Part shown: positions 6,782 through 64,000 of the stretch, piece after piece | How positions within the stretch are numbered: position 1 is the first letter of the stretch | Layout: each line of letters begins with the position of its first letter | Assembly: GCA_030824115.1 (NCBI GenBank) | Contig: JAVBYI010000012.1 | Location: 1-64,000, forward strand | DNA length: 64,000 nt | Direction: 5' to 3' | Source of the DNA: Rhodocyclaceae bacterium | GTDB taxonomy: Bacteria; Pseudomonadota; Gammaproteobacteria; Burkholderiales; Rhodocyclaceae | The notes under the pieces: generated by a model | Told to the model about the DNA's origin: nothing | Seen by the model: the letters and a program-made list of their open reading frames with translations, nothing else | Database searches by the model: none | Translations under genes and position numbers: made by a program

Positions 6782-6805
6782 GCCGTTTTGCCAGCGCCGA
6801 CATTT
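6782..6805 (+). repeat. dispersed 24-bp element, copy 1 (intergenic)
   Basis: GCCGTTTTGCCAGCGCCGAC followed by ATTT; two differences from the consensus. It lies between the divergent cyclase and porin genes and is one of the few fully intergenic copies. Confidence 0.8.
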
Positions 6806-6822
6806 CGATTAGTTGTCAAAAA

Positions 6823-6848
6823 ACAACAACCATGCACTGGTTTGTTGT
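6823..6848. promoter_or_regulatory. imperfect inverted repeat upstream of porin gene
   Basis: ACAACAACC (6823-6831) and GGTTTGTTGT (6839-6848) pair with a single bulge around a seven-base loop. It lies about 150 bases upstream of the porin start and just after the dispersed element. It may be an operator or an mRNA leader hairpin. There is no T-run, so it is not a terminator. Confidence 0.3.
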
Positions 6849-6881
6849 ACGAAAGTCATTCTCGGCTGGACTTGGACGGTG

Positions 6882-6897
6882 TGGCTGGCAGAATGCA
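6882..6897 (+). promoter_or_regulatory. weak sigma-54-like site upstream of porin
   Basis: TGGCTGGCAGAATGCA has GG-N10-GC spacing and a TGGC -24 core, but the -12 box is ATGCA and there is no CACG after TGGC. The site is 100 bases before the ATG. It could be chance, and no convincing -35/-10 pair was found instead. Confidence 0.25.
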
Positions 6898-6996
6898 CAC
6901 ATCTCCAAGCAATTGGAGGGAGCCGGGAACAGTGACCAACCACGTGGAGTCATTGAACCCAAACACCCTAAGCAAACCCTTATCAAGGAGTTTTAA

Positions 6997-8175
6997 ATGC
7001 AAAAGAAAATCATCGCTCTGGCAGTTGCTGGCCTGATGTCTGGCGCCGCTTTCGCCCAGTCGAACGTCACCATTTACGGCGTTGCTGACGCTTTCTTCGG
7101 TCAGGACAAGGCATCTACCGCTGCTGGCGCCACCACCCCGATCAAGCGTACTGTTGTGGATGACGGCGTTCTGGCTGGTTCGCGTATCGGCTTCAAGGGC
7201 ACGGAAGATCTGGGCGGTGGCCTGAAGGCGCTGTTCGTGATGGAGTTTGGTGTTAACAGCGAAGAAGCTGCTGGCCTCCAAAGCAACGCTCGCCAGCAAA
7301 TGGTTGGTCTGACCGGTGGTTTTGGTACCTTTGTTGCTGGCCGCTTGTACTCGCCCGGCTATAACATCGCCAACAAGTTCAACACCGGTGTTGGTGGTCA
7401 GCGCCTGAGCGCCCTGGCTGCGCTGCAAGACGAAGTGGGTGCCACGATCAACATGGGCGCAACTGGCCGCCTGAACAACGGCATGGCCTATGTTTCGCCG
7501 AGCATGTCGGGTCTGGTTGCTACCGTTGCCTACACGACCATGGCTGAAAACACTCGCGGTGAAAGCGACCGCGTTTGGGGTCTGGGCTTGGACTATGACA
7601 ATGGCCCGATCTCCGCTGGCTTTGCTCACCATAACATCGTTACCAACACTGCTGCTGTTGCCGCCAACACGACTTTGACTTTGAGCACCGCTGCTACCCT
7701 GACTGGCAGTACGCTGGTGAGCACTGTTTCTGGTACGCCTGGCCTGAATGTTTTTGGCAACAACGCTGCTGCAGCCTTTGATACCAAGATTAAGGAAAAC
7801 ATCGTCGCTGGTTCGTATGACTTCGGTGTTGCCAAGGCTGTCATGACCTATCAAAACCAGAAGACAACGGCTGCTGGTGTTGAGTCCGCCAAGAACAACA
7901 TCTGGAACATGGGCGCTATCGTTCCCGTGGGTGGTGCTGGTTCTTTCCGTATCAACTATGCTCGCCTGAACGACAAGATGGTTGCCAACAACGATGCCAA
8001 GTCGTGGTCCACGGGTTATATCCACTCCCTGTCCAAGCGCACCAGCGTCTACGGTGGTTACAGCCAAACCAAGAGCAAGAACGCTGCGATGGCTGCAGTT
8101 GCTGGTGGTCTGGCTCCGACCAACAACGACGGCAAGTCCCGCACCTATGGTGTTGGTCTGAACCACTCCTTCTAA
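6997..8175 (+). CDS. Gram-negative general porin (OmpC/Omp32-like trimeric type)
   Basis: 392 residues. The signal peptide 'MQKKIIALAVAGLMSGAAFA' is cleaved before 'QSNVTIYGVADAFF', the hallmark first strand of betaproteobacterial porins. Further marks are 'SRIGFKGTEDLGGGLKALF' and the C-terminal 'YGVGLNHSF' ending in Phe for BAM recognition. A strong AAGGAG site lies just upstream. Codon use is strongly biased, as in highly expressed genes, which also leaves a long spurious open frame on the opposite strand. The gene is monocistronic with a terminator. Confidence 0.95.
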   Translation: MQKKIIALAVAGLMSGAAFAQSNVTIYGVADAFFGQDKASTAAGATTPIKRTVVDDGVLAGSRIGFKGTEDLGGGLKALFVMEFGVNSEEAAGLQSNARQQMVGLTGGFGTFVAGRLYSPGYNIANKFNTGVGGQRLSALAALQDEVGATINMGATGRLNNGMAYVSPSMSGLVATVAYTTMAENTRGESDRVWGLGLDYDNGPISAGFAHHNIVTNTAAVAANTTLTLSTAATLTGSTLVSTVSGTPGLNVFGNNAAAAFDTKIKENIVAGSYDFGVAKAVMTYQNQKTTAAGVESAKNNIWNMGAIVPVGGAGSFRINYARLNDKMVANNDAKSWSTGYIHSLSKRTSVYGGYSQTKSKNAAMAAVAGGLAPTNNDGKSRTYGVGLNHSF

Positions 8176-50375: not shown

Positions 50376-50527
50376 GCCGGCTTTTTGTGCAGCGGGCATG
50401 AAAAGTCATTGACGGACTTGAGGGTGGGCTGCAAGAATGACGCATATCACCCTGTTTCTGAATCAAGTTGTCCTGATTGGGTGGATCATCGAACACATCA
50501 AGGCGATAGGAAAAAGAGTCCAGAGCA

Positions 50528-53200
50528 GTGGCTGGCAAACGTAACCTGAATTTCTGGAAAAGCGACTGGTTCGTTGGCCTGTTGGTCAGCGCGACGGTGC
50601 TCGCCCTCGGCAGCAGCAGCCTGCTGCAAAGCCTGGAGCGCAAGGCCTACGACTTGGCCATGGGGATGACCGATCGTGTGCCATCCGATCGCATCGCCAT
50701 CATTGCCATCGACAAGCAGAGCCTCGACAACATCGGCCGCTGGCCGTGGTCGCGCGAGATCTTTGCCGACATGATCGAGAAGCTGTCGGCGGCCAAGGCG
50801 AAAGTGATTACCACCAGCGTGTTCTTTTCTGAGCCGCAGCGGGATGCAGGGCTGGGCTATGTCGACCGCCTGATCGAACTGAATAACGCACGCCTGGCGG
50901 CTGAGTCGGCGCGTGCGGCCGAACGTGCGGCTGCGGAAGCGGCCGCTGCTGCCCAAGCTGCTGCAAAGCGCCAGGGGGCGATGCAGGTACGAGCAGGAAT
51001 CCCAATTCCGCCGCCACCACAAGCCCTGCCTCTCGAGGCAACCGCGCCGACAATCGATCCCCAATCCGATCCAATCGGTGCCCTACTGGCTGAGGCCGAA
51101 CACAAGTTGAATACCGATCGCCGCCTAGGCGAGGCGATTACCCAGGCGGGGAATGTCGCCCTGCCGATGTTGTTCCAGATCGGTGAGCCGATTGGCCGCC
51201 CGGATCGGCTACTGCCCGAGTTTGTGCAGCGAAATGCGGTCAAGCTGGCGAATGCCGAAGCCGTGGCGCCGATTCCGACGGCTACCATCGATGCGGGCGT
51301 GATCGACACGCTGGGCGAAAAAGCGGCGGCGATTGGCCACTTCAACGTGCTGACGGATGTGGATGGCGCAATCCGGGCTGAGCCGCTGGTCCTGCAACAT
51401 TTTGACCATGCCCTGCCGTCACTGGCGCTGCGGGTTGCGGCGCAGAGCCTGAACCTTGCCCCTGCTGATATTCAGGTGCAGAGTGGCGCGGTCAAACTCG
51501 GCAAGTTGAAAATTGCCACCGACCCTGCGTTGCGTATGCTGACCTATTTTTATCGCGATGCCGGCGCTTTTCCAATTGACTCTTTCTACGATGTGGTCAG
51601 CGGCAAGATTCCGTATGGCAAGTATCGCGACAAGATTGTCCTGATCGGTCCGACAGCCGCCGGCGTGGGCAGTCTGTTCGTGACGCCGGTTTCGCCGTCA
51701 ATGGCTTCGGTCGAGGTGATGGCGCATACCGTTTCCAGCATCCTCTCGGAACATTTTTTCGTCGCGCCGGACTGGGGTGTGTGGGTTGAGTACGGTGTTT
51801 TCCTGCTGGTGGCGCTCTACCTGATTCTGGCCTTGCCGCGCTTGTCGGCCGGCATGGGTGCGGTAATTACGGCGTTGTTGCTGATTATGCTGGTCGGCGC
51901 ACATTTTGGTTTGATGATGACGCAACTGATGTGGCTGCAACTGATGTTGCCCGCGACTTTGCTGCTCGTCGGTCACCTGCTGCTGACCACCAAGCGCTTT
52001 CTGGTCACCGAACGGGGCAAGGAAAAGTCGGAAGCCGAGTCGGCCGAGTCGAACCGCATGCTCGGCTTGGCTTTCCAGGGACAGGGTCAGCTCGACATGG
52101 CCTTCGACAAGTTCCGCAAGTGTCCGCTGGATGACCAGTTGATGGAGAATCTTTACAGTCTGGGCCTTGATTTCGAGCGCAAGCGCCAGTTCAACAAGGC
52201 GGAATCGGTGTTCCGCTACATGGCGGATTACAACATCGCGTTCCGTGATCTGGCGCAGCGCATCGCGCGCACCAAGCAGCTTTCGGAAACCGTCATCCTC
52301 GGCGGGGCGGGAGCCGGCCGCAGTAATGCGAGCACGATGATTCTCGATGGCGGTGATATGGAAAAGCCGATGCTCGGCCGCTACCAGATCGAGAAGGAAC
52401 TGGGCAAGGGGGCGATGGGCGTGGTGTATCTCGGCCGCGATCCGAAGATCAATCGCGTGGTCGCGATCAAGACCATGGCCCTGTCACAGGAGTTTGATGA
52501 GGATGAATTGGTCGAGGTCAAGGAACGCTTTTTCCGCGAGGCGGAAACTGCCGGGCGACTCAATCATGCCAACATCGTGACGATGTTTGATGCCGGCGAG
52601 GAGCATGATCTCGCCTACATCGCGATGGAATTCCTCAAGGGCAAGGATCTGGTACCGCAGACCAAGCCGGACGGTCTGCTGCCCTTGCCCCAAGTGCTTT
52701 CCATCATCGCCCGGGTGGCCGAGGCGCTCGACTACGCACATAGCAATCAGGTCGTCCATCGCGACATCAAGCCCGCCAACATCATGTATGAGCCGACCGA
52801 GGATCAGGTCAAGGTGACCGACTTCGGCATCGCGCGCATCACTGACTCATCCAAGACAAAAACCGGCATGGTGCTCGGTACGCCCTCCTACATGTCGCCG
52901 GAGCAATTGGCGGGCAAGAAGATCGACGGGCGTTCCGACCTGTTCTCGCTAGGTGTCACCTTGTTCCAGATGGCTTCCGGCAAGCTGCCCTTTGTCGGCG
53001 AGTCGATGGCGCAATTAATGTTCAAGATTGCCAGCGATCCGCATCCTGATATCCGCACCTTGGTGTCAGGCATTCCCGATTGCGTGGCGACGATTATCGA
53101 CAAGGCGCTGGTGAAAGACCCAGATCAGCGCTACCAAACTGGCGGCGAATTTGCGCGTGACCTGCGTACTTGCCTTGCTGCACTGGGGGGCACGACGTAA
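50528..53200 (+). CDS. CHASE2-domain serine/threonine protein kinase
   Basis: 890 residues from GTG. An N-terminal membrane helix (about 14-33) is followed by a periplasmic CHASE2 sensor (about 35-410) with an Ala-rich helix and a Pro-rich stretch inserted at about 120-180. Three membrane helices follow (about 415-490), then a TPR-like linker and a full Hanks kinase domain from about 616. The kinase has 'LGKGAMGVVYLG', Lys648, 'VHRDIKPANIMY' (Asp746), 'DFGIARI' and 'GTPSYMSPEQL'. It is first in an eight-gene operon whose next genes encode a PP2C phosphatase and an FHA protein, the natural partners. The external ligand is unknown. Confidence 0.93.
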   Translation: MAGKRNLNFWKSDWFVGLLVSATVLALGSSSLLQSLERKAYDLAMGMTDRVPSDRIAIIAIDKQSLDNIGRWPWSREIFADMIEKLSAAKAKVITTSVFFSEPQRDAGLGYVDRLIELNNARLAAESARAAERAAAEAAAAAQAAAKRQGAMQVRAGIPIPPPPQALPLEATAPTIDPQSDPIGALLAEAEHKLNTDRRLGEAITQAGNVALPMLFQIGEPIGRPDRLLPEFVQRNAVKLANAEAVAPIPTATIDAGVIDTLGEKAAAIGHFNVLTDVDGAIRAEPLVLQHFDHALPSLALRVAAQSLNLAPADIQVQSGAVKLGKLKIATDPALRMLTYFYRDAGAFPIDSFYDVVSGKIPYGKYRDKIVLIGPTAAGVGSLFVTPVSPSMASVEVMAHTVSSILSEHFFVAPDWGVWVEYGVFLLVALYLILALPRLSAGMGAVITALLLIMLVGAHFGLMMTQLMWLQLMLPATLLLVGHLLLTTKRFLVTERGKEKSEAESAESNRMLGLAFQGQGQLDMAFDKFRKCPLDDQLMENLYSLGLDFERKRQFNKAESVFRYMADYNIAFRDLAQRIARTKQLSETVILGGAGAGRSNASTMILDGGDMEKPMLGRYQIEKELGKGAMGVVYLGRDPKINRVVAIKTMALSQEFDEDELVEVKERFFREAETAGRLNHANIVTMFDAGEEHDLAYIAMEFLKGKDLVPQTKPDGLLPLPQVLSIIARVAEALDYAHSNQVVHRDIKPANIMYEPTEDQVKVTDFGIARITDSSKTKTGMVLGTPSYMSPEQLAGKKIDGRSDLFSLGVTLFQMASGKLPFVGESMAQLMFKIASDPHPDIRTLVSGIPDCVATIIDKALVKDPDQRYQTGGEFARDLRTCLAALGGTT

Positions 53201-54039
53201 TGGCAAAGATCGATCTTTCCGGCGCCATTGAGATGGCTACCTGTAGCGATCCTGGCAAGGTGCGTACTAACAACGAGGATTCAGTGCTGGCCAATCCCCA
53301 ACTGGGGCTGGCTGTACTCGCTGATGGCATGGGCGGCTACAACGCCGGCGAGGTGGCGAGTAGCATGGCCACCGCCGTGCTGGGTTGTGAACTGGAGCAT
53401 GCCTTTGGGCTTCAGCCGCCACATCAGGTACGTGAGGATGGCAAGACCTGGGCCCGCGCTGCCTTGATGGATCGCGTGGCCAAGACCAATGCGGCGATCC
53501 ATCATGCCGCCAGCAACAATGCCCAATATGCCGGCATGGGTACGACCCTGGTGATGGCGCAGTTCTTTGATAATCGCATGGCGGTGGCCCATATCGGCGA
53601 TTCGCGCTTGTATCGCCTGCGCGATGGGGCGTTGTTTCAGGTGACACGCGATCATTCGTTGCTTCAGGAGCAGCTCGACAGCGGCTTGATTACCCCGGAG
53701 CAGGCCCGTTTTTCGCAGAACAAAAATCTGGTGACGCGGGCAATGGGCGTCGATGCGGATGTTGATACGGAACTGGCCGAGCATGTCGTGTTGCCGGGGG
53801 ATGTCTATCTGCTTTGCTCGGATGGTCTGAATGACATGGTCGAGGATGACGAGATTGCATTGACCCTCTCATCCCTGTCGGCCAATCTGCCCTTGTGTGC
53901 GCAGCAACTGGTCGATATGGCCAATGACAATGGGGGCCGGGACAATATCTCGGTCATTCTTGTCAAAATAAAGCAGCCCTTTCCTGCGCCCGGGATGACA
54001 TCCGGCTGGAAAGAGCGTGTACAGTCGTGGTTCAGTTAA
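53200..54039 (+). CDS. PP2C-family Ser/Thr protein phosphatase
   Basis: 279 residues from ATG 53200, which overlaps the kinase stop (TAATG). All PP2C metal motifs are present: 'NNEDSVL', 'VLADGMGGYNAGEVAS', 'GMGTTLV', 'HIGDSRLYRL', 'CSDGLNDMV' and 'GGRDNISVILV'. It should reverse the upstream kinase. It is similar in type to PppA/Stp1; there are no type VI secretion genes near it. Confidence 0.94.
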   Translation: MAKIDLSGAIEMATCSDPGKVRTNNEDSVLANPQLGLAVLADGMGGYNAGEVASSMATAVLGCELEHAFGLQPPHQVREDGKTWARAALMDRVAKTNAAIHHAASNNAQYAGMGTTLVMAQFFDNRMAVAHIGDSRLYRLRDGALFQVTRDHSLLQEQLDSGLITPEQARFSQNKNLVTRAMGVDADVDTELAEHVVLPGDVYLLCSDGLNDMVEDDEIALTLSSLSANLPLCAQQLVDMANDNGGRDNISVILVKIKQPFPAPGMTSGWKERVQSWFS

Positions 54040-54066
54040 ATTTCGAAGTCTTCAAGGACGCGCAAG

Positions 54067-54825
54067 ATGGCTAAGCTCATACTCAGCATGGACAACCTGG
54101 TGCTCAAGGAAATTCCCTTGAACAAGGAGCGCACCACGCTCGGTCGCAAGGCCTCGAACGATATCCAGATCGACAATCTGGCGATTTCGGGCGAGCATGC
54201 GGTGATCGTGACCATCCTCAACGACTCGTTCCTTGAGGATTTGAACAGTACCAACGGTACCTGCGTCAATGGCCAGCAGATCAAGAAACATTTTCTGCAA
54301 AACAATGACGTGATCGAGCTGGGCAAATATCGGCTCAAGTATGTCAATGAGGCACCGGCCCAGGCTTCGCAGGCTGATTTTGAGAAAACCATGGTGTTGC
54401 GCCCGGACATGATGCGCAAGGCAGCCGAGCATGCCGGCGGCAAGTCTGCCGAGGCCGTTGAGGCAGGGCACGCGCCAATGATGCCGGCGGTCGATCTGGC
54501 CCCCCCCATTGGTGCGGCTGTGCCAAAGCCCGCGCCAGTACCTGAGGCAGCACCGGTCATCCCGCTTGGCGCAATTCAGGTACTCAATGGCAGCAACGCC
54601 GGCAAGACGCTGGAACTGGTCAAGTCGCTGACCACTCTGGGCAAGCCGGGTGTGCAGGTGGCGGTGATTGCCCGTCGTCCGCATGGTTATTTCCTGACCC
54701 ATGTCGAAGGTGCGAAGTTTCCCTCCGTCAATGGTGAGGCCATCGATACCCAGGCGCATGAACTGAAAGATCATGATGTCATCGAGTTGGCCGGGGTCAA
54801 GATGGAGTTCTTCTTCAAGCTCTGA
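54067..54825 (+). CDS. FHA-domain phosphothreonine-binding protein
   Basis: 252 residues. The first FHA domain (about 1-100) has the binding residues in 'TTLGRKASNDIQID', 'ISGEHAVI' and 'LNSTNGTCVNG'. A linker rich in Ala and Pro (about 110-170) is followed by a second, degenerate FHA-like fold (about 170-252) with 'VNGEAIDTQAHELKDHDVIE' but no GR or SxxH. It lies 27 bases after the phosphatase gene and is a likely reader of kinase products. Confidence 0.92.
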   Translation: MAKLILSMDNLVLKEIPLNKERTTLGRKASNDIQIDNLAISGEHAVIVTILNDSFLEDLNSTNGTCVNGQQIKKHFLQNNDVIELGKYRLKYVNEAPAQASQADFEKTMVLRPDMMRKAAEHAGGKSAEAVEAGHAPMMPAVDLAPPIGAAVPKPAPVPEAAPVIPLGAIQVLNGSNAGKTLELVKSLTTLGKPGVQVAVIARRPHGYFLTHVEGAKFPSVNGEAIDTQAHELKDHDVIELAGVKMEFFFKL

Positions 54826-54836
54826 GTACCCAGGCC

Positions 54837-57050
54837 GTGAAGCGCCATCTCGCTCGCTATCTCCTCGGTTCAATCCTGTTGCTGGTGATGCTCGGCCATT
54901 CGGCCGGGTTTTATCGCATCGGACTGGTCGAACGCTTTGACGCAATCTTCTACGACGTCAAATTGCGATTGACCATGCCGCGCGATGTCGATCAACGGAT
55001 TGTGGTGGTCGACATCGACGAGAAATCGCTGGCTGAGCAGGGACGTTGGCCCTGGGGGCGTGACCGCATGGCCCGCCTGATGGACAAGTTGTTTGATAGC
55101 TATGGGGTTCAACTGGTCGGCTTCGACGTGGTGTTTGCCGAGCCGGATGTCAGTTCCGGCATCAAGTCGCTGGAACAGATTGCCCGTAGTGATTTGCGTG
55201 GCAATGCCGCCTTCCAGTCGGCGCTGCGTGAAATGCGTCCACGCCTCGACTACGATGCCCGATTTGCGGCTTCGCTGAAGAATCGCAAGGTCATTCTTGG
55301 TTATTACCTTTCCAATAACGAGAATGGGCAATCCAGTGGCGTCCTGCCAGCGCCGACATTTGGTGGAGAAGTGCTGGCCGGCAAGCCGCTGGCAGTGACC
55401 CGCTGGCAGACGCATGGTGGCAACCTGCCGATCCTGCAGTCTGCCGCCGCCGGCGCGGGCCACTTCAATCCGCTAGTGGATTTTGATGGTATTTCCCGCC
55501 GCGTGCCCTTGCTGGCGGAATATCAGGGCGCTTACTATGATTCACTTGCCCTGGCCGTTGTGCGCGCCCTGCATGGCTTCCCCCCCGTGTTGCCGGGTTT
55601 TGCCGATGCCGATAACACCTATCTCGAATGGCTCGAGCTGCCCACCGCAAAGGGCAGCTTGCAACTGCCGGTCGATGAAAACATTGCGGCCTTGATTCCT
55701 TACCGTGGTCCGCAAGGCAGCTTCCTCTATCTGCCAGCGACGGATGTGCTGAATGACCGTGTACCGCAGGAAAGCCTGCGTGGGCGCATTGTCCTGATCG
55801 GTACCACGGCGCCCGGCCTGATGGATCTACGGGCCACCCCCGTCTCAGCGGCTTATCCGGGGGTCGAGGTGCATGCCAATCTCATCGCGGGCATGCTGGA
55901 TGGTGCCCTTAAGCACAAGCCGGATTATCTGCTGGCGGCCGATGTCGTGCAGGTTTTCGTGGCAGGCGCCCTGATGGTATTCCTACTGCCGCTGCTGTCA
56001 CCCCTTAAAGCCACACTGACGGGTACCTTCATCCTGTTGGTGCTGTTCAGTATCAATCTGTCGCTCTGGCAGGCGGGCAATCTGGTGCTGCCGTTTGCTG
56101 GTGCCGGCCTGCTGGTGGTGCTGTTGTATGCCGTGAATATGTCCTGGGGCTATTTTGTCGAGTCGAAGACCAAACGTCAGTTCACCGAATTGTTCGGCCA
56201 GTATGTGCCGCCCGAACTAGTCGATGAAATGGCGAAGAATCCCGAGGGTTACAGCATGTCCGGCCGTAAGGCGGAGCTGACCGTTTTGTTTTCCGATGTA
56301 CGCGGGTTTACGACGATATCCGAGGGCTTGCAGCCGGATGAACTGGCTGCCCTGATGAACGAATACCTCGGGGCGATGACGGCGGTGGTGCGTGATCATC
56401 GCGGCACGCTCGATAAATACATCGGTGATGCGATCATGGCGTTCTGGGGTGCGCCAATGGCCGATCCTGAGCATGCCCAGCATGCGGTTGTGACGGCACT
56501 GGAAATGCAGGTGGCCCTGAAAGCGCTCAATCAGCGCCTGATGGCGAAGGGCTGGCCCGAATTGAAAATTGGTGTGGGTGTCAACACGGGGCCGATGACC
56601 GTGGGCGACATGGGCTCGCCGGTACGCAAGGCCTATACCGTGATGGGCGATGCAGTCAACCTCGGGTCGCGTCTTGAAAGCATCACCAAACAGTATGGTG
56701 TCGGCATCATCGTCGGCGAAGGAACGCGTGATGTGCTGGGCAACCGCTTTGTGCTGCGCGAACTGGATCGGGTACGCGTCAAGGGCAAGGCGGAACCGGT
56801 GGGCATTTACGAGCCGCTGGGCCTGGATGGTCAAGTTGACACGGCTATACTCGAAAAGCTCAAGCTCTGGAATCAGGCCCTGCAGGCTTATCGTAGCCAG
56901 GAGTGGGATCGTGCCGACATGCTGCTCCTGAACCTGATTCGCCAGGAGCCACATTATCTCTATGAACTTTACGTCAAGCGCGTTAGTTATTACCGCGAGA
57001 ATCTGCCCCCGGCGGGTTGGGATGGCGTGACCACCTTCGAGACGAAATAA
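54837..57050 (+). CDS. CHASE2-domain class III adenylate cyclase
   Basis: 737 residues from GTG. An N-terminal helix, a CHASE2 periplasmic sensor (about 30-370), three membrane helices (about 375-450) and a cyclase domain (about 480-660) follow in order. The metal Asp residues are in 'LFSDVRGFT' and 'YIGDAIMAF'. Substrate Lys lies in 'TLDKYIGD' and Thr in 'YTVMGDAVN', the Lys/Thr pair common in bacterial adenylate cyclases. A dispersed element is read as 'GVLPAPTF' within CHASE2. Sharing the sensor type with the kinase suggests both respond to related external cues. Confidence 0.93.
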   Translation: MKRHLARYLLGSILLLVMLGHSAGFYRIGLVERFDAIFYDVKLRLTMPRDVDQRIVVVDIDEKSLAEQGRWPWGRDRMARLMDKLFDSYGVQLVGFDVVFAEPDVSSGIKSLEQIARSDLRGNAAFQSALREMRPRLDYDARFAASLKNRKVILGYYLSNNENGQSSGVLPAPTFGGEVLAGKPLAVTRWQTHGGNLPILQSAAAGAGHFNPLVDFDGISRRVPLLAEYQGAYYDSLALAVVRALHGFPPVLPGFADADNTYLEWLELPTAKGSLQLPVDENIAALIPYRGPQGSFLYLPATDVLNDRVPQESLRGRIVLIGTTAPGLMDLRATPVSAAYPGVEVHANLIAGMLDGALKHKPDYLLAADVVQVFVAGALMVFLLPLLSPLKATLTGTFILLVLFSINLSLWQAGNLVLPFAGAGLLVVLLYAVNMSWGYFVESKTKRQFTELFGQYVPPELVDEMAKNPEGYSMSGRKAELTVLFSDVRGFTTISEGLQPDELAALMNEYLGAMTAVVRDHRGTLDKYIGDAIMAFWGAPMADPEHAQHAVVTALEMQVALKALNQRLMAKGWPELKIGVGVNTGPMTVGDMGSPVRKAYTVMGDAVNLGSRLESITKQYGVGIIVGEGTRDVLGNRFVLRELDRVRVKGKAEPVGIYEPLGLDGQVDTAILEKLKLWNQALQAYRSQEWDRADMLLLNLIRQEPHYLYELYVKRVSYYRENLPPAGWDGVTTFETK
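55338..55361 (+). repeat. dispersed 24-bp element, copy 11 (inside CHASE2 cyclase gene)
   Basis: GGCGTCCTGCCAGCGCCGAC followed by ATTT; one difference. Translated 'GVLPAPTF'. Confidence 0.85.
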
Positions 57051-57817
57051 TGAAAATACGGGTTCTCGGCTGTAGCGGCGGTATTGGTGGTCGGCATTTG
57101 CGAACCACCTCGTTGCTGATCGATAACGACATCCTGATCGATTGCGGTACAGGCGTGGCGGATCTGTCGATTGCTGAACTGGCGCAGGTCGACCATGTGT
57201 TCCTGACCCATACGCACATGGATCATATCGCCTGCCTGCCTTTGATGATCGATACGGTTGGGGATATGCGTAATCGCCCGTTGATGGTGCATGCGACCGC
57301 AGCAATTGAGGAGATGCTGCGTGCGCATGTGTTCAACTGGGCGATCTGGCCAGATTTTTCGGAAATCCCGACACCTGCCGAACCCTGGTTGCGATTTGTG
57401 CCCCTCCGCGAGGGAGATGTGGTTGATTTGCAGGGACGGAAAATTCGTCCGCTGCCCGCCAATCACACGGTACCGGCGGTTGGTTATCAGTGTGATTCGG
57501 GCAAGGCCAGTCTGGTCTTCTCCGGCGATACCGGCCCCTGTGCTGCTCTGTGGGAGGCGGTTAATCGTATTGATAACCTGAAAACCCTGATTATCGAGAC
57601 TGCCTTTTCCAACCGCGAACGCAAACTTGCCGAGGCATCTCTGCACCTGTGCCCCAGCATGCTGTTCGAGGAACTGGCCTACCTGCAGTCCCGGCCGGAT
57701 ATTTTCATCACCCATCTCAAGCCGGGCCAAATCGAACTGACGATGGAGGAAATCGAAGACAGCATCGGCGAGTTCAGGCCCCGCATGTTGCAAAACAATC
57801 AGGTCTTCGAATTATGA
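57050..57817 (+). CDS. metallo-beta-lactamase-fold cyclic-nucleotide phosphodiesterase (class II-like)
   Basis: 255 residues from ATG 57050, overlapping the cyclase stop (TAATG). It begins 'MKIRVLGCSGGIGG'. Metal-binding motifs are 'FLTHTHMDHIACLP', 'PANHTVPAVGY', 'FSGDTGP' and 'ITHLKPG'. The pattern resembles class II 3',5'-cyclic nucleotide phosphodiesterases. Placement directly after a cyclase supports cAMP breakdown, though other MBL hydrolases cannot be excluded. Confidence 0.82.
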   Translation: MKIRVLGCSGGIGGRHLRTTSLLIDNDILIDCGTGVADLSIAELAQVDHVFLTHTHMDHIACLPLMIDTVGDMRNRPLMVHATAAIEEMLRAHVFNWAIWPDFSEIPTPAEPWLRFVPLREGDVVDLQGRKIRPLPANHTVPAVGYQCDSGKASLVFSGDTGPCAALWEAVNRIDNLKTLIIETAFSNRERKLAEASLHLCPSMLFEELAYLQSRPDIFITHLKPGQIELTMEEIEDSIGEFRPRMLQNNQVFEL

Positions 57818-58899
57818 GTACGCCGGCTATGTCCACGGTGGCTCCAGAATCCTTGCGGCATCTTTCGCCTATGGGTAATCTGGGTGCGGATGCCTTGGCC
57901 CAAGTCGCTTCGGTGGCACACAACGAACGACTGAATCGTGGGCTGCACGATATGCCCTACCCCTGGCCCCATCAAGTGGTTTATCTATTGCACGGCGAGA
58001 TCAAGCTGGGATACGCTCATGGCATGAGCAAGGTCCTTGTCGGTGGCTTTGGCGGAGCACTGGCTCCCCTGGCATCGGCCGGGATGGAACCCAAGCACAT
58101 TCGTGCCATCACAAATACCGAGCTGCTCTGCTTTGATGAAAATGCGCTCGATATTCTGGTCACATGGGATCAATTGGTTCCCGTTCGTCAGCACCGCCAG
58201 GATGTGCAGCCATCCACCCCAGCGACCGACTGGCGCAACATGTCCGGGCTTTTTGATGCACAGCGCCTGACGTTCGGTACCTTCTCAAGCTTACCGCCGG
58301 CCCATATTGAAAGCCTGCTGGCCTCCTTTGATCGTCAACTCGTGAAGGCGGGTGATGTGATCGTGCGCCAGAATGAACCGGGCGATTTCTACTACGTGAT
58401 TGAACGCGGTCGTGCACAGGTGACACGCGATGTGGCGGGTGCGTCGATTGAGTTGGCTGAGATCAAGGCAGGGGATGCTTTTGGCGAAGAGGCGCTGATT
58501 GCCGAGACCAGCCGCAATGCCACCGTGACGATGAAAACCGATGGCGTGTTGCTGCGCCTCAATAGTGCCGATTTCATCCGGTTGTTGCGCGAGCCCTTGC
58601 TGCACTATGTTGACCTGAATCAGGCCAAAGAGCATGTGGCCAACGGGGCAATTTGGCTGGATGTGCGTTTTCCGGCGGAGTATCGGCATGATGGCTTGCC
58701 GGGAGCCATAAATATTCCCCTGAATGAACTGCGCGATGCGTTGGCGGCCCTGCCCAGGGACAAGGAGTACATCGCCTACTGCCAGACCGGCAGACGCAGC
58801 TCAGCGGCCGCTTTTCTGTTGTCGCAGCGCGGATTCAAGGCCAGGCTTCTGGCGGGTGGTTTGAAATCGAAGGGTTGTGTGGGGAGTCTGGCAGCATGA
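57814..58899 (+). CDS. cyclic-nucleotide-binding protein fused to a rhodanese domain
   Basis: 361 residues from ATG 57814, overlapping the previous stop (ATGA). The first about 120 residues look like a degenerate cNMP fold. The second cNMP domain (about 150-255) has the phosphate-binding cassette 'GDAFGEEALIAETSRNATV' with Glu and Arg in place. A rhodanese domain (about 265-355) ends the chain, with active Cys in 'AYCQTGRRSSAAAFLL'. It could read the cAMP made and destroyed by the two preceding genes; sulfur transfer or redox output is inference. Confidence 0.88.
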   Translation: MSTPAMSTVAPESLRHLSPMGNLGADALAQVASVAHNERLNRGLHDMPYPWPHQVVYLLHGEIKLGYAHGMSKVLVGGFGGALAPLASAGMEPKHIRAITNTELLCFDENALDILVTWDQLVPVRQHRQDVQPSTPATDWRNMSGLFDAQRLTFGTFSSLPPAHIESLLASFDRQLVKAGDVIVRQNEPGDFYYVIERGRAQVTRDVAGASIELAEIKAGDAFGEEALIAETSRNATVTMKTDGVLLRLNSADFIRLLREPLLHYVDLNQAKEHVANGAIWLDVRFPAEYRHDGLPGAINIPLNELRDALAALPRDKEYIAYCQTGRRSSAAAFLLSQRGFKARLLAGGLKSKGCVGSLAA

Positions 58900-61313
58900 G
58901 CGCGATACTGGAACCAACTGCATCAGGACAAGCGGGTCGGGAAGGTGCCAATTCGGGCGAACTGGGTGCCCGCCTGACATTCTTCAAGAATCTTCAGGCG
59001 GTTACCAACAAGATTCACGCGACCTCGAACATTGACGAGATCATGCTCGAACTGTCACAGGATATTTGTGATCTGTTCAATGCGGATCGGTTGACAATCT
59101 ATTCGGTCAGCGAGGACAGGACATCGATTGTTTCCAAGGTCAAGACCGGGCTTAACTCGTTCAAGGATCTCAAGCTGCCGATTGCCGACCAGAGTATTGC
59201 GGGCAATGTGGCCCTGTCGCGCAAGATTGTCAATATTCGCGATGTCTATGACGAGGCTGAACTCAAGGTCATCAACCCGAACCTGCGTTTCCTGCAGGAA
59301 GTCGACAAGCGCACGGGCTACCGCACCAAGCAAATGCTGGTTGGCCCCGTTACCGAGTTGCAGACCGGTGAATTGCTGGGTGTCGTTCAACTTATCAATA
59401 ACAAGGCGGGCGTGCCCTTTGCGATTGTGTCCGAGGAGGGCATCAAAGGCTTGTGCGAAACCCTTGCCATTGCCTTTGCCCAGCGGAATAAGCCCGCCCA
59501 GACGATCAAGACCAAGTACGATCATCTGGTGCTCGATGCGGTGGTTTCCGCGCAGGAAATGGATATCGCCAGCAAGTCGGCGCGCCGAAAAAATATTGAT
59601 GTCGAAGAAGCGTTGATCACCGAATTTCAGGTCAAGGTGCCCGCCATCGGTGCTGCCCTGGCCAAGTTCTTCGGCGTGCCTTACGAGCCTTACAAGAGCG
59701 ATCGCATCAAGCCGATCGATTTGATGAAGAACCTGCGGCGCGAGTATGTCGAGCAGAATCAGTGGTTGCCGATCGATGACACCAAGGATGGCATTCTGGT
59801 GCTGTGCATGGACCCTGAACAGGTCAAGAGTTCGCGGGTGGTTAACAACGTCTTTGCCAAGAGCAAGATCGTCTATCGTGTGACGACGATTCGCGAATTC
59901 AAACAGACGGTCGACCAGTTCTTCGGCGGTGGCGCCTTTTCCGACAATACCGATGTCGGTGACCTGCTTTCGGCGATGGATGAGGGCGAGAGCGAGGGCG
60001 ACTCCGGCGGTGATGATGTTTCCGCCGCCGCCGACAACGAACTCGTCAAACTGGTCAACAAGATCATCATCGATGCTTTCCAGCAAGGGGTTTCGGATAT
60101 CCACATCGAACCCGGCATGGGCAAGGACAAGGTGATGATCCGCTTCCGCCGCGATGGTTCGTTGCAGAAGTACATCGAGATTCCCCATAGCTTCCGTACT
60201 GCGCTGGTCGCCCGTCTCAAGATCATGTGTGACCTGGATATTTCCGAGAAACGCAGGCCGCAGGACGGCAAGATCAAGTTCAAGAAGTACGGCCCACTCG
60301 ATATTGAGTTGCGGGTGGCGACGATCCCGACCGCAGGCGGTGTTGAGGACGTGGTGATGCGTATTCTGGCGGCAGGCGAGCCGATTCCGCTCGACAAGCT
60401 GGGTCTGTTGCCGCATAACGAGGAACGTCTCAAAGCAGCGGTATCAAAACCCTATGGTCTGTTCTTCGTCTGCGGTCCGACTGGTTCGGGTAAGACGACA
60501 ACGCTGCACTCCGTGCTGAAGTTCCTGAATACACCGGATACCAAGATATGGACTGCGGAAGATCCGGTGGAAATCACCCAGAAGGGTCTGCGTCAGGTAC
60601 AGGTCAACAAGAAAGCCGGCCTTGATTTTGCGGTGGTCATGAAAGCCTTCCTGCGGGCTGACCCGGACATCATCATGGTGGGTGAAATGCGTGATGCCGA
60701 GACGACAGGCATCGGCATTGAGGCGTCGCTGACCGGTCACCTGGTGTTCGCCACGTTGCATACCAACAGCGCACCGGAATCCATCATTCGTCTGCTCGAC
60801 ATGGGCATGGACCCCTTCAACTTTGCCGATGCGCTGCTCGGCATTTTGGCCCAGCGCCTCGCCAAGCGCCTGTGCGGTAAATGCAAGGAAGCCTATGTCG
60901 CCAGCCCGGAGGAAATGAAACATTTCCTGACGGAATATTGCGAGGAACTGGCCAACACCGAAACCTTCAAGCGTGATGGCAAGGCGGCCTACGAGGCGGT
61001 CTACAAAGAGTGGGCGAAGAAATACGCCAACGAGCAGGGACAGTTCACGCTTTATCGTGCCAAGGAGGCCGGGGAAGAGGACACCAAGTGCGAGGCCTGC
61101 GGCGGTTCAGGTTACAAGGGGCGGATGGGCCTGCATGAGCTGATGATCGGCACCGATCCGGCCAAGAAGCTGATTCAGGAACACGCACGTGTGGCGCAGT
61201 TGGTGGCGCAGGCGCTTGAAGATGGCATGCGTACCCTCAAGCAGGACGGCATGGAGAAAGTGCTGCAGGGTATTACCGATATGAAGCAGGTCAGGGCTGT
61301 TTGTATCAAGTAG
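58896..61313 (+). CDS. GAF-domain PilB/GspE-type ATPase
   Basis: 805 residues from ATG 58896, overlapping the previous stop (ATGA). A GAF domain (about 40-195) precedes a GspE N-terminal region (about 230-350) and the ATPase. Walker A is 'GPTGSGKTTTLHS' near 527, the Asp box 'TAEDPVEI', Walker B 'DPDIIMVGEMRD' and the His box 'GHLVFATLHTN'. A four-Cys zinc site is made by 'CGKCKEAY' and 'CEACGGSGYKG'. It differs from the MshE of this window, which has an MshEN front instead. A GAF-regulated extension motor for pili or secretion is the likely role; its partners are not in the operon. Confidence 0.9.
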   Translation: MSAILEPTASGQAGREGANSGELGARLTFFKNLQAVTNKIHATSNIDEIMLELSQDICDLFNADRLTIYSVSEDRTSIVSKVKTGLNSFKDLKLPIADQSIAGNVALSRKIVNIRDVYDEAELKVINPNLRFLQEVDKRTGYRTKQMLVGPVTELQTGELLGVVQLINNKAGVPFAIVSEEGIKGLCETLAIAFAQRNKPAQTIKTKYDHLVLDAVVSAQEMDIASKSARRKNIDVEEALITEFQVKVPAIGAALAKFFGVPYEPYKSDRIKPIDLMKNLRREYVEQNQWLPIDDTKDGILVLCMDPEQVKSSRVVNNVFAKSKIVYRVTTIREFKQTVDQFFGGGAFSDNTDVGDLLSAMDEGESEGDSGGDDVSAAADNELVKLVNKIIIDAFQQGVSDIHIEPGMGKDKVMIRFRRDGSLQKYIEIPHSFRTALVARLKIMCDLDISEKRRPQDGKIKFKKYGPLDIELRVATIPTAGGVEDVVMRILAAGEPIPLDKLGLLPHNEERLKAAVSKPYGLFFVCGPTGSGKTTTLHSVLKFLNTPDTKIWTAEDPVEITQKGLRQVQVNKKAGLDFAVVMKAFLRADPDIIMVGEMRDAETTGIGIEASLTGHLVFATLHTNSAPESIIRLLDMGMDPFNFADALLGILAQRLAKRLCGKCKEAYVASPEEMKHFLTEYCEELANTETFKRDGKAAYEAVYKEWAKKYANEQGQFTLYRAKEAGEEDTKCEACGGSGYKGRMGLHELMIGTDPAKKLIQEHARVAQLVAQALEDGMRTLKQDGMEKVLQGITDMKQVRAVCIK

Positions 61314-61324
61314 CGGAGGTGAGC

Positions 61325-62959
61325 ATGGAATCGAGCGACGACCTGTTCAAGCGCCTGGAGCAACTCAACGAGGTCGGCGCCGCGCTGTCGAGTGAGCGCG
61401 ATATCCATCGTCTGCTGGAAAAAATTCTCGTCGCGGCCAAGGACATTACGCATGCCGATGGCGGCACACTCTATCGCATCACCGAGGACGGGAAGGCCCT
61501 GCGTTTCGAGATCGTGCGTAATGACACGCTGGGTATCGCGCTCGGTGGTTCGTCCGGCAACCCGATCAACTTTCCTGATCTGCCGCTCAAGGACGAACAG
61601 GGGGCGCCGAACAACGCCATGGTGGCCGCTTATGCCGCCATCAATGACAAGACGGTCAACATCGTGGATGCCTACAGCGAAGCGGGCTTCGATTTTTCCG
61701 GCACGCGCAAGTTCGACGAGCGTACTGGCTATCGCTCGCAGTCTTTCCTGACGGTGCCGATGAAGAATCATGAGAGTGAAATCATTGGCGTGCTGCAACT
61801 GATCAACTCGCTGGATTCGCAAACGCAAGCGGTACAAGCCTTCTCCATATCGGAGCAGCGCTTGGCAGAATCCCTGGCATCGCAGGCCGCCATCGCACTG
61901 ACCAATCGCCAACTCATTTCACAACTGGAAACGCTGTTTGAGTCTTTCATCAACCTCATCAACCTGGCGATTGACGAAAAGTCGCCCTACACCGGCGGGC
62001 ATTGCCAGCGCGTGCCGGCGCTGACCATGATGATCGCCGAGGCCGTGAATGCCACGCATGAAGGGCCGCTGTCCGCTTTCCAGATGACCGATGCGGATCT
62101 TTACGAACTGAAGATCGCCGGCCTGCTGCATGATTGTGGCAAGGTGACGACGCCCGTACATGTCGTCGACAAAGCCACCAAACTGCAGACGATCTTCGAC
62201 CGCATCGGCCTGGTCGATACGCGCTTCGAGGTACTCAAGCGTGATGTACAGATTGCCACTTTGCGTCGCTTGCTCGACATGCGGTCACAAGCCAATCCAG
62301 AAGCCGAGTCCGCCTGCTGGGCCGAGTGCTGGAATGAGTTGGGCGTGCTCGATGATGAGCGTGAATTCCTGCGGCGCGCCAATGTGGGCGGTGAAGCCAT
62401 GACAACCGAAGACCAGCAGCGCGTGCGTGATATTGGCACCCGGCATACCTGGCGCAATCCGTCCGGCGTGGATGCCGACTTTCTCGCTGCGGATGAAATC
62501 GAGAACTTGTCGATTCGCGCGGGCACCTTGACGGCCAAAGAGCGCGAAATCATCAACCACCATATTGTGGCCACTATCAAGATGCTCGAAGCGCTGCCCT
62601 GGCCGAAGCATCTCAAGAATGTGGCGGAATACGCCGGCGGCCATCACGAACGCATGGATGGCAAGGGCTACCCGAAAGGGCTGACGCGCGAGCAGATGTC
62701 GTTACCGGCCCGCATGATGGGCATTGCCGACATCTTCGAGGCCCTGACAGCCAAGGATCGCCCCTACAAACCGGGCATGAAGCTTTCTCAAGCGATTGAT
62801 ATCATGAGAAAGTTTAGTTCTGGCGGACATATCGACCCGGATTTGTTCGAAACTTTTCTGCAGCAGAATGTCTATCGGCGCTATGCCGAGGAATTTCTGG
62901 ACCCCAGCCAGATCGATGAGACTGCTTCGCAAAATGTCGGTGCTGGCGGGACGGCATAG
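61325..62959 (+). CDS. GAF/HD-GYP protein, putative c-di-GMP phosphodiesterase with large insertion
   Basis: 544 residues from ATG 61325, with GGAGG upstream. A GAF domain (about 10-190) is followed by an HD-GYP domain: 'HDCGKVTTP' (His269-Asp270) and 'HHERMDGKGYP' from His440, both complete. The 170-residue spacing is about 100 more than in standard HD-GYP proteins, owing to an insertion with 'RHTWRNPSG'. The last residues 'NVGAGGTA' come from a dispersed 24-bp element. It is the last gene of the signalling operon and probably lowers c-di-GMP. Confidence 0.88.
   Translation: MESSDDLFKRLEQLNEVGAALSSERDIHRLLEKILVAAKDITHADGGTLYRITEDGKALRFEIVRNDTLGIALGGSSGNPINFPDLPLKDEQGAPNNAMVAAYAAINDKTVNIVDAYSEAGFDFSGTRKFDERTGYRSQSFLTVPMKNHESEIIGVLQLINSLDSQTQAVQAFSISEQRLAESLASQAAIALTNRQLISQLETLFESFINLINLAIDEKSPYTGGHCQRVPALTMMIAEAVNATHEGPLSAFQMTDADLYELKIAGLLHDCGKVTTPVHVVDKATKLQTIFDRIGLVDTRFEVLKRDVQIATLRRLLDMRSQANPEAESACWAECWNELGVLDDEREFLRRANVGGEAMTTEDQQRVRDIGTRHTWRNPSGVDADFLAADEIENLSIRAGTLTAKEREIINHHIVATIKMLEALPWPKHLKNVAEYAGGHHERMDGKGYPKGLTREQMSLPARMMGIADIFEALTAKDRPYKPGMKLSQAIDIMRKFSSGGHIDPDLFETFLQQNVYRRYAEEFLDPSQIDETASQNVGAGGTA
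62932..62955 (-). repeat. dispersed 24-bp element, copy 12 (C-terminus of HD-GYP gene)
   Basis: On the minus strand GCCGTCCCGCCAGCACCGAC then ATTT; one difference. It encodes the final residues of the HD-GYP protein before TAG. Confidence 0.85.
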
Positions 62960-63069: not shown

Positions 63070-63085
63070 TGGCACGCGGGTTGCT
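63070..63085 (+). promoter_or_regulatory. consensus sigma-54 promoter of pilA
   Basis: TGGCACG-N4-TTGCT is a perfect match to the -24/-12 consensus. The predicted start of transcription is near 63096, leaving a 37-base leader with AAGGAGAG before the pilin ATG. PilR-type control of pilA by RpoN is established in Pseudomonas. Confidence 0.85.
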
Positions 63086-63132: not shown

Positions 63133-63543
63133 ATGAAGAACGTTCAACAAGGCTTCACCCTGATCGAACTGATGATCGTCGTTGCCATTATCGGTATTCT
63201 GGCTGCAGTGGCAATCCCGGCCTATCAGGACTACACGATCAAGTCGCAAGCTGCTGGTGCCCTGGCCGAAATCGCTGGCGGTAAGGTTGGTCTTTCAACT
63301 GCCGTGAATGATGGTAAGACCCCATCCACTACTTCGACCGACGATGGCTTCATCGGTGTGCAGGCCTCAACCACTTTTTGTGACGTGGTGGTTGGCGCTA
63401 GCAGTATTACTTGTACCGCCAAAGCAGGTAATGCCGCCAACTTCAACGGCAAGAATATCGTTTTGACCCTGGATGCGGCGACGGGTGCCTGGACTTGCAC
63501 GACGACACTGGATGCAAAGTACAAGCCGAAGAACTGCACCTAA
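63133..63543 (+). CDS. pilA: PilA, type IV major pilin
   Basis: 136 residues. The leader 'MKNVQQG' is cleaved before '[20 protein letters not shown]', with Glu5 present. The chain is short with four Cys ('TFCDVV', 'ITCTAK', 'WTCTTT', 'KNCT'), giving one or two disulfides. It has its own perfect sigma-54 promoter and terminator, so it is monocistronic. It belongs to the standard type IVa class rather than the longer pilins near the msh genes. Confidence 0.93.
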
Positions 63544-63613: not shown

Positions 63614-64000
63614 TTAGCGGATTTCTTCTGTAATACAGCGACCGATCAGCCAGTCGCCCGTTTCTTCCAGTTTCTCGTCGGCATGCAGTCGCCACGGGCG
63701 GCCATCCAGCAGGGTAACAAACACCGTGCCGTTTTCCCAGTAACTGGGCGCGATCAGGATGCGCACGCTGCTGTCGTCCTGCAGGGCATCAAGCACAATC
63801 AAATCCGTCTTGAGGCCACTGTCCATGACGGACAGCGGGCGTGGCAACTTCGACAGGGTCTCGATACCGGCAGAACCGTCGACCTCGCTTTGCCGCGTGA
63901 AGCGGCGAATGATGCCCACGTGCCAACCGGTCACGCCTTCGGGTTGAAAGCCTACCAGCGCCCCGACCTGTGCCCAGTCATTGCGTTTGATGGGCAGTTT
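63614..64000 (-). CDS. C-terminal part of an unidentified protein (start outside window)
   Basis: The frame is open from the right edge to TAA at 63614, giving about 128 visible residues with no start needed inside. It contains 'WAQVGALVGFQPEGVTGWHV' then 'GIIRRFTRQ' and ends 'LIGRCITEEIR'. The pattern looks like a beta-rich regulatory or PilZ-like end, but I cannot assign a family. Confidence 0.6.
   Translation of the reverse strand, partial: KLPIKRNDWAQVGALVGFQPEGVTGWHVGIIRRFTRQSEVDGSAGIETLSKLPRPLSVMDSGLKTDLIVLDALQDDSSVRILIAPSYWENGTVFVTLLDGRPWRLHADEKLEETGDWLIGRCITEEIR

Follow-up and report, generated by a model that had tools for sequence, protein, structure and literature searches.

An eight-gene row and its downstream pilin gene

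The window, by which we mean the whole 64,000-nucleotide stretch analyzed (Rhodocyclaceae bacterium, GCA_030824115.1, contig JAVBYI010000012.1, positions 1-64,000 of the forward strand), carries eight same-strand genes between positions 50528 and 62959, with intergenic gaps of at most 27 bases, followed by a type IV pilin gene. The features are as follows.

50528..53200, + strand: CHASE2 Ser/Thr kinase (PK), 890 aa, GTG start (Pfam CHASE2, Pkinase)
53200..54039, + strand: PP2C phosphatase, 279 aa, Stp1/IreP type (NF033484)
54067..54825, + strand: FHA protein, 252 aa, with a canonical FHA1 and, at the C terminus, a domain interpreted as a second, degenerate FHA
54376..54405, + strand: linker motif DFEKTMVLRP with the candidate phospho-acceptor Thr108 (codon 54388-54390)
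54837..57050, + strand: CHASE2 class III adenylate cyclase, 737 aa, substrate pair K527/T601
57050..57817, + strand: MBL-fold hydrolase, 255 aa, full zinc ligand set (PF02112, residue conservation)
57814..58899, + strand: cyclic-nucleotide-binding plus rhodanese (CNB) protein (Pfam, residue conservation)
58896..61313, + strand: GAF-MshEN(remnant)-T2SSE ATPase, 805 aa, a PilB-like motor
58962..59501, + strand: GAF domain of the ATPase, residues 23-202 (profile and fold comparison)
59670..59930, + strand: MshEN remnant of the ATPase, residues 259-345 (Pfam; c-di-GMP motif search)
61325..62959, + strand: GAF plus HD-GYP protein, probable c-di-GMP phosphodiesterase (Pfam, residue conservation)
63070..63085, + strand: sigma-54 type -24/-12 site before pilA (exact TGGCAC-N5-TTGCW match)
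63133..63543, + strand: pilA, type IV pilin, probably transcribed separately (Pfam Pilin, N_methyl)

The first-pass annotation of this DNA had described eight genes on one strand with overlaps or gaps of less than 30 bases, and all eight frames are indeed intact at these places and on this strand, with no internal stops in an ORF check. Its domain names were borne out by Pfam, which returned CHASE2 plus Pkinase, PP2C, FHA, and CHASE2 plus Guanylate_cyc for genes 1 to 4, and MBL fold, cNMP_binding plus Rhodanese, GAF plus MshEN plus T2SSE, and GAF plus HD_5/HD for genes 5 to 8. Overlaps and gaps depend on the start codons, which were our choice within each frame; with these starts, overlaps of 1, 1, 4, and 4 bases join kinase to PP2C, cyclase to MBL, MBL to CNB, and CNB to ATPase, and gaps of 27, 11, and 11 bases separate PP2C from FHA, FHA from cyclase, and ATPase from HD-GYP. 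Signals in a promoter and terminator scan were at or below chance, and the promoter-like site before the kinase gene (50409-50438) stands at the chance level (6 found, 7.2 expected).

The window's only exact match to TGGCAC-N5-TTGCW lies 47 bases upstream of pilA. With this sigma-54 site of its own, pilA was rejected as a ninth operon gene and is probably a separate transcription unit. The arrangement recurs among relatives: among the 97 loci whose downstream sequence spans at least 2.8 kb, a pilin gene lies no more than 4 kb downstream in 43, compared with 0 of 84 upstream controls, and a sigma-54-like site accompanies 35 of these 43 genes, while 54 of the 97 loci have no pilin within 4 kb downstream. 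The presence of PilQ was discarded as a test of a pilus role, because matches are near universal with or without the ATPase, at 40/40 genomes with it (including G031, which has no PilQ over the cut-off) and 29/32 genomes lacking it.

Conservation and co-variation of the gene set

Loci of relatives were hand-picked to spread over genera, together with the best 80 of 568 confirmed matches, a sampling that is not random. From 186 loci examined, 10 with an identical ATPase and 1 with a truncated ATPase were dropped, and 137 of the resulting 175 passed a length filter on flanking sequence. All eight genes are present in 53 of the 137 and the gene order is identical in every one, so the set is not a product of chance. 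Azospira oryzae DSM 21223 is among those that carry the full set, together with a pilin gene. The earlier picture of a phospho-Thr writer, eraser, and reader with a cAMP arm beside a PilB-like motor accordingly describes a row of genes conserved in many betaproteobacteria. As for the co-occurrence that it proposed as a check, the genes are not generally scattered, but 84 of the 137 loci lack one or more of them, and in six genomes the kinase is encoded elsewhere. The kinase/phosphatase/FHA set stands beside the GAF motor in 82 of the 137 sampled loci; the FHA gene is absent from 16, from which it follows that the ATPase can work without the FHA protein. The distinctive N-terminal part of the ATPase was found in 122 of 300 genomes of the same order (E 1e-110 or better).

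Catalytic and ligand sites were picked by us from known motifs and were counted over sets that include the window and five duplicate loci and exclude short copies. Kinase residues K648, D746, N751, D765, and E792 are kept in 60/60 relatives; PP2C D42, D134, D208, and D248 in 83 or 84 of 84; the FHA1 phospho-Thr pocket (R27, S41, H44, N63, N68) in 90/91; cyclase D487, K527, D531, T601, N608, and R612 in 76/76; the seven zinc ligands of the MBL protein in 96/96; G223, E224, R233, and C322 of the CNB-rhodanese protein in 76/76 and its R327 in 75/76; and the Walker, Glu, His, and first two Cys residues of the ATPase in 104/104, with its last two Cys in 103/104. An exception to this near-invariance is H412 of the HD-GYP protein (57/85). 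The phosphatase also matches NF033484 at 241.8 bits, above the cut-off of 230.

The CHASE2 parts of the kinase and the cyclase are homologous (profile E 6e-38), and the two genes are concordant in 123 of the 137 loci, 78 having both and 45 neither. This co-variation persists when relatedness is counted (17 independent pairs, 11.4 the same way, 0.0 opposite, p about 0.001). The PP2C and FHA genes, which lie between the two, are still present at 25 of the 45 loci that have lost both, and one deletion therefore does not explain the joint loss.

Judged by its residues, the operon cyclase carries the Lys/Thr substrate pair and metal Asp pair of class IIIb adenylate cyclases. The neighboring gene had been called an MBL phosphodiesterase, and although the MBL fold and its full ligand set stand, phosphodiesterase is a candidate activity: the protein matches PF02112 (class-II cAMP phosphodiesterase) at 35.4 bits, above the cut-off of 23.7, over just 61 of 340 model positions, and scores 48 bits against NF041851 (cut-off 400) and 80 bits against RNase Z (cut-off 293). 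It is possible that cAMP is its substrate. The gene is kept in 41 of 49 loci lacking the cyclase, so the enzyme is not simply the cyclase's partner, and a role as simple antagonist of the operon cyclase is correspondingly weakened. The last protein of the row is a probable c-di-GMP phosphodiesterase by its domains, and its GAF is related to that of the ATPase (blastp E 3e-14).

The FHA protein and its linker threonine

In a predicted model of the FHA protein, which contains no phosphate, the mean pLDDT is 85, both ends are beta-rich, and the linker falls to 51-56 in blocks 101-150; FHA1 and the C-terminal domain match each other in profile comparison (E 4e-6). By sequence and fold, the closest relatives of FHA1 are GarA/OdhI, and the linker sequence EKTMVLRPD resembles ETTSVFRAD, the phosphorylated peptide of GarA/OdhI (excerpt of PMC8546545). 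Conservation of EKTMVLRP averages 90%, compared with 36% across the rest of the otherwise hypervariable linker. Phosphorylation turns GarA off, blocking binding to its enzymes (excerpt of PMC5448819). In contrast to GarA/OdhI, however, the protein described here has a second FHA-like domain, its candidate site lies C-terminal to FHA1 whereas theirs lies N-terminal, where the ETTS motif is absent here, its neighbor is a pilus-type motor rather than 2-oxoglutarate dehydrogenase, and its host is betaproteobacterial, while GarA has been called unique to Actinobacteria (excerpt of PMC12321487). Against NCBIfam OdhI it scores 44.6 bits, below the cut-off of 200. On this comparison the FHA protein does not belong to the GarA/OdhI family, although its mode of action may be similar. 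A TMIL motif in the kinase linker was considered as a second FHA docking site and rejected, being present in the window and not conserved.

Thr108 was followed in three classes of loci: 90 that carry both kinase and PP2C, 38 that carry PP2C only, and 15 that carry neither. It is near-invariant in the first class (89/90, with Ala in L176) and occurs in 33/38 PP2C-only loci, seven of which fail the length filter, the complete ones keeping it in 27/31; a stricter linker motif gives 29/38 and misses the Thr in L042, L143, L144, and L195. Where kinase and PP2C are both missing, Thr108 is found in 0/9 complete loci (seven Ala, two gaps), six further loci cut by contig ends having been set aside (L093, L096, L109, L111, L128, and L139; three Thr, one Ala, two gaps). 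The gap in L057 is not a sure loss, because the FHA frame is split there, and one of the nine, L043, fails a 1.7 kb downstream filter, which brings the Thr counts to 81/82 with both enzymes and 0/8 with neither. The FHA1 pocket is intact in 9/9 loci that lack both enzymes and Thr108. The co-loss of Thr108 and the kinase is not significant when relatedness is taken into account: among 13 pairs, 3.1 change in the same direction and 0.2 in opposite directions (median p 0.25), and the stricter motif gives 3.8 and 0.2 (p 0.125). For PP2C loss there are only 2 independent pairs. A search of 19 kinase-less genomes with Thr108 found an unlinked kinase ortholog in 6, no more than a kinase domain of 46-52% identity that lacks CHASE2 in 5, and neither in 8; in the nine genomes whose locus has lost kinase, PP2C, and Thr108 alike, no kinase ortholog was found elsewhere.

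The GAF-ATPase and a model for its control

Like PilB and MshE, the GAF-ATPase is a T2SSE motor with part of MshEN, and its checked active-site residues are intact. It had been labeled a PilB/GspE ATPase, of which a PilB-like T2SSE protein with a GAF stands: its scores of 476 bits against the PilB model (TIGR02538, cut-off 675.65) and 424 bits against the GspE model are both below cut-off, a canonical pilB adjoins a pilC-type gene elsewhere in the genome, and Pfam finds no pilC-type gene in the operon. On these matches the motor is a separate GAF-type relative, not the canonical PilB. Each of 46 ATPase-bearing genomes (43 full-length, 3 partial) has at least six matches of this ATPase superfamily.

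The best profile match of the GAF is 1ykd (CyaB2 with cAMP bound; E 2e-33), followed by a GAF HD-GYP protein and the GAFs of PDE2/10/6/5. In sequence it is thus nearest to cyclic-nucleotide binders, although, unlike CyaB2 and these phosphodiesterases, it sits on a motor ATPase and its cyclic-nucleotide binding is a prediction from sequence. In fold comparison (VIA-align Z) the predicted domain is as near to a PtsP GAF (21.3) as to the cyclic-nucleotide GAFs (16-20: PDE5 19.8, PDE2 19.1, cAMP-bound Lcd1 17.9, 1ykd 16.4), and the fold search cannot single out a ligand. In the predicted model of the ATPase, the GAF and the N-terminal part that follows are mostly at pLDDT 85-94, and domain packing was disregarded because the motor core is largely at 32-60.

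With a pattern for the MshEN c-di-GMP motifs, both 24-residue motifs were found in the same genome's canonical PilB and none in the GAF-ATPase. Gating of the latter by c-di-GMP via MshEN was rejected on the absence of these motifs; unlike PilB and MshE under c-di-GMP control, it carries a GAF. A 2024 review of PilB gives the layout as two 24-residue motifs with a five-residue spacer and, in the excerpt consulted, has cAMP acting through transcription and c-di-GMP reaching the extension motor itself; a word search of that text finds neither GAF nor FHA (PMC11656802).

The reading that we favor, with a probability of roughly 0.45, is that a GarA-like phospho-switch and local cAMP control an alternative (second) type IV pilus extension motor. 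The two related CHASE2 sensors would relay an external condition along two paths: the kinase would phosphorylate Thr108 in the linker of the FHA protein, and the cyclase would make cAMP. The unphosphorylated FHA protein would bind a target through FHA1, most likely the neighboring GAF-ATPase; once phosphorylated, its FHA1 would fold onto its own linker and release the target, as in GarA/OdhI, and PP2C would reset it. The targets of cAMP would be the ATPase, via its GAF, and the CNB-rhodanese protein; local removal of cAMP may fall to the MBL enzyme, and the HD-GYP protein would lower c-di-GMP, for which canonical PilB, and not the GAF-ATPase, has the binding motifs. Observed here are the genes with their domains and intact active sites, their conservation and co-variation, the linker motif, and the absence of the c-di-GMP motifs; how the proteins interact, which way control runs, which ligands they bind, and the role in piliation are all inferred. 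More doubtful is the wider proposal of a widespread betaproteobacterial pilus motor under direct, protein-level gating by cAMP, via a GAF replacing the c-di-GMP motifs, and by a GarA-like phospho-Thr FHA switch, both fed by the sister CHASE2 pair. If true, a cAMP-type GAF motor beside a kinase/phosphatase/FHA set would represent a new control logic for extension motors, and a switch of the GarA/OdhI kind, which in Actinobacteria serves metabolism, would be found controlling a surface machine of bacteria. The proposal permits sharp tests on one residue (Thr108), one ligand (cAMP), and one motor.

Two alternatives concern what the motor does. The GAF-ATPase could be a brake that, at the base of the pilus, either associates with canonical PilB or competes with it, the cassette setting its active amount; the pilB and pilC-type genes elsewhere, the multiple superfamily members in each genome, and the operon's lack of a pilC-type gene are consistent with this, but invariant active-site residues, which a mere brake does not need, weaken it, and we consider it unlikely. 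We likewise think it improbable that the motor works for a different T4P-like machine (type II secretion, a competence pilus, or a minor pseudopilus), with pilA a neighbor by history only. Such a role would suit the 54 pilin-less loci and the genome without PilQ over the cut-off, itself a non-discriminating character, whereas the downstream bias of pilin genes, most with a sigma-54-like site, and the higher score of the PilB than the GspE model, both below cut-offs, argue for a pilus.

The remaining alternatives concern the signaling genes. Partial sets are common and the MBL gene usually outlasts the cyclase, as expected if the cAMP and phospho-Thr arms were separate systems sharing a promoter, their order reflecting operon inertia; the concordance of kinase and cyclase, which holds with relatedness counted and which one deletion cannot explain, makes this quite improbable. 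A type VI-like PpkA-PppA-Fha phosphorylation pathway had been suggested by the same trio of activities, kinase, PP2C, and FHA protein standing side by side, and the FHA protein does match TagH weakly (41 bits); this is far below the cut-off of 120.25, however, and TssC, the type VI sheath protein, although present in 11 of 40 ATPase-bearing genomes, has no match in the window's genome (92% complete) or in 28 others of the 40. The likeness ends with a generic trio whose FHA protein is nearer to GarA/OdhI than to TagH, and the link to type VI secretion was rejected as extremely improbable.

The earlier statement of knowing no described system with this set agrees with our search of open-licence PMC literature, where, among the matches listed and judged by title and abstract start, none described the eight-gene operon or its pilus link. 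In the archaellum regulatory network, the FHA protein ArnA, ArnB, and the kinases ArnC/ArnD control a T4P-like filament; unlike the operon described here, that control is of expression and involves a vWA partner, with no cyclase or GAF motor in the excerpt consulted (PMC6509490).

Class III cyclases also accompany the ATPase genome-wide, being present in 40/40 genomes with it and 19/32 without. When the 18 genomes with a cyclase at the locus are removed, the comparison is 22/22 (one, G278, resting on a weak match, E 5e-4) versus 19/32 (Fisher 3e-4, a test that ignores relatedness and genome size).

The operon and its surroundings

All eight same-strand genes assigned to this place by the first-pass annotation are there, separated by overlaps or gaps of at most 27 bases given the start codons chosen, and Pfam agrees with the domains it had claimed for them.

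50528-62959 (+): CHASE2 kinase, PP2C, FHA protein, CHASE2 cyclase, MBL protein, CNB-rhodanese protein, PilB-like GAF-ATPase (the motor), GAF/HD-GYP protein

As also claimed, pilA lies directly beyond the operon, beginning 173 bases past its last stop codon. Since the window contains a single exact match to the sigma-54 consensus TGGCAC-N5-TTGCW, and that match precedes pilA, the gene is best seen as a separate unit. The genes upstream of the operon, labelled from their reading frames and not from a family search, are sucC, sucD and an ornithine-cyclodeaminase-like gene. Past pilA, a 490-residue frame (Pfam search at 0.001: no match) runs off the window, with thymidylate synthase, glucokinase and sugar-metabolism genes farther out.

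63614-64000 (-), continuing in locus L051 at 8615-10084 (-): the 490-residue frame

The window's genome comprises 24 contigs (3.0 Mb, 92% complete), and its nearest named relatives, among the matches listed, are metagenome bins titled Rhodocyclaceae.

In the reading that we consider most likely, sister CHASE2 sensors would set both a GarA-like FHA switch and the cAMP level, and the switch and cAMP are predicted together to gate an alternative pilus motor. The component parts are already known; the predicted wiring is new, and in keeping with the earlier remark that no described system with this set was known, no description was found among the matches listed in the open-licence literature.

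Conservation and spread of the gene row

The row of genes is a real, conserved and operon-like unit. Among 175 distinct loci, 137 were retained with at least 8.5 kb upstream and at least 1.7 kb downstream, and gene order is identical in every one. Co-occurrence of all eight genes holds less widely: the full set is present in 53/137 loci and all except the CNB-rhodanese gene in a further 20, but reduced sets are frequent. The steadiest neighbour of the ATPase is MBL (125 loci), followed by FHA (121), PP2C (113), HD-GYP (106), cyclase (88), kinase (82) and CNB (59).

Reduced gene sets among the 137 loci
PP2C-FHA-MBL-ATPase-HD-GYP: 12 loci
PP2C-FHA-MBL-ATPase: 8 loci
FHA-MBL-ATPase: 7 loci
MBL-ATPase: 7 loci
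ATPase alone: 4 loci

A full-length ATPase ortholog occurs in 43 of 61 genomes searched (58-100% identity, the window's genome included) and a partial one in three more. Its N-terminal profile finds some match in 152 of 300 Burkholderiales genomes (E 1e-110 or better in 122), and a scan of named genomes confirmed at least 568 relatives, of which the best 80 were sampled. Beyond the order, with G000 (the window's genome), G001 and G051 left out as the order's own and hits accepted down to E 1e-60, distant relatives appear in 7/369 genomes of the class and 2/299 of the phylum (E 1e-71 to 1e-61). Within the 9-16.5 kb fetched around these nine, no kinase, PP2C, FHA, cyclase, MBL or CNB relatives adjoin, and a GAF/HD-GYP gene adjoins two. 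Since these ATPases lack cassette neighbours, the GAF motor seems to be the older part and the cassette, as sampled, seems confined to this order.

Some further loci were recorded:

L230-L238: GAF-type PilB-like ATPases without cassette genes in other genomes of the class and phylum
L101 and L112: metagenome bins titled Bordetella parapertussis with most or all of the operon, the title possibly a mislabel
G227:C286:1780-2874 and G120:C20:195798-196325: both match the ATPase N-terminal part but are interrupted by a stop codon, either decaying copies or assembly errors

Sister sensors and a proposed GarA-like FHA switch

Kinase and cyclase share homologous CHASE2 regions (blastp E 2e-15; profiles 6e-38), and the two genes come and go together: both are present in 78 of the 137 loci, neither in 45 and only one in 14, while PP2C and FHA, located between them, are kept in 25 of the 45 loci without either. 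When relatedness was controlled with independent pairs on a FastTree tree of the ATPase, 17 pairs differed in the cyclase; the kinase changed in step with it in 11.4 of them and against it in 0.0 (median p 0.001), while for the CNB gene the corresponding figures were 6.4 and 0.0 (p 0.03). This co-variation, which concerns presence at the locus and not genome-wide, argues most strongly for the two arms being one system. Six genomes of one family carry a full-length kinase ortholog away from the locus (58-65% identity). A second, divergent trio was also seen, with no motor-ATPase relative within the 14 kb fetched:

L223 (G009:C25) 4958-8016: kinase (512 aa), PP2C and FHA genes

In both sequence and fold, the N-terminal FHA domain (FHA1) comes closest to GarA/OdhI, its pocket is intact in 90/91 proteins, and the C-terminal domain beyond the long linker is related to it (profile E 4e-6). 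Where both kinase and PP2C are present (90 loci), conservation averages 90% across linker residues 104-112, versus 36% elsewhere in the linker. Their motif, FEKTMVLRP, resembles GarA's ETTSVFRAD (PMC8546545), whose phosphorylation stops GarA from binding its enzymes (PMC5448819). The candidate phospho-acceptor, Thr108, is present in 89 of these 90 loci, in 33/38 with PP2C only (27/31 of the complete ones) and in none of nine complete loci without kinase and PP2C, seven having Ala and two a gap. The association with kinase loss does not reach significance when relatedness is taken into account (13 pairs, 3.1 of them changing the same way and 0.2 the opposite way; median p 0.25). Among 19 kinase-less genomes with Thr, six have a kinase ortholog elsewhere, five only a 46-52% identical kinase domain and eight neither; the nine Thr-less genomes have no kinase ortholog elsewhere (best 218 bits). 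FHA1 retains its pocket in all nine, which is what additional, phosphate-independent binding of a target would predict; GarA is reported to bind in this way (Nott 2009).

The motor, its GAF domain and a possible pilus role

Each active-site and zinc residue checked in the ATPase is the same in at least 103 of 104 sequences. The genome's canonical PilB adjoins a PilC-type gene and carries two c-di-GMP motifs of 24 residues each, set five residues apart; none was found in the operon ATPase. At the front of the latter is a GAF domain whose best PDB sequence match is 1ykd (2e-33), followed by a GAF HD-GYP protein and then PDE2/10/6/5; the HD-GYP protein encoded next to the ATPase has a related GAF. 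That the ATPase's GAF binds cAMP is a prediction, since by fold alone PtsP and other GAFs score equally or higher. Class III cyclases occur in 40/40 ATPase-bearing genomes versus 19/32 without it, an excess that is partly automatic because 18 of the 40 have the cyclase at the locus; the remaining 22 all have one too, one of them weak (E 5e-4; Fisher 3e-4, ignoring kinship and genome size). One cyclase elsewhere in the window's genome has GAFs related to the motor's:

L228 (G000:C23) 4503-6962: GAF-GAF-class III cyclase, 820 aa

Among the 97 loci whose downstream flank spans at least 2.8 kb, a pattern test finds a same-strand pilin within 4 kb downstream in 43, accompanied by a sigma-54-like site in 35; the upstream control gave 0/84. 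The downstream pilin and the PilB-like core favour a role in a type IV pilus, a reading that stays tentative because 54 of the 97 loci show no pilin within 4 kb and PilQ is near universal, ATPase present or not. Roughly 2-6 kb downstream of the operon, two families of TPR-type proteins turn up repeatedly (in 16 and 15 loci); from their look only, our guess is pilin glycosylation.
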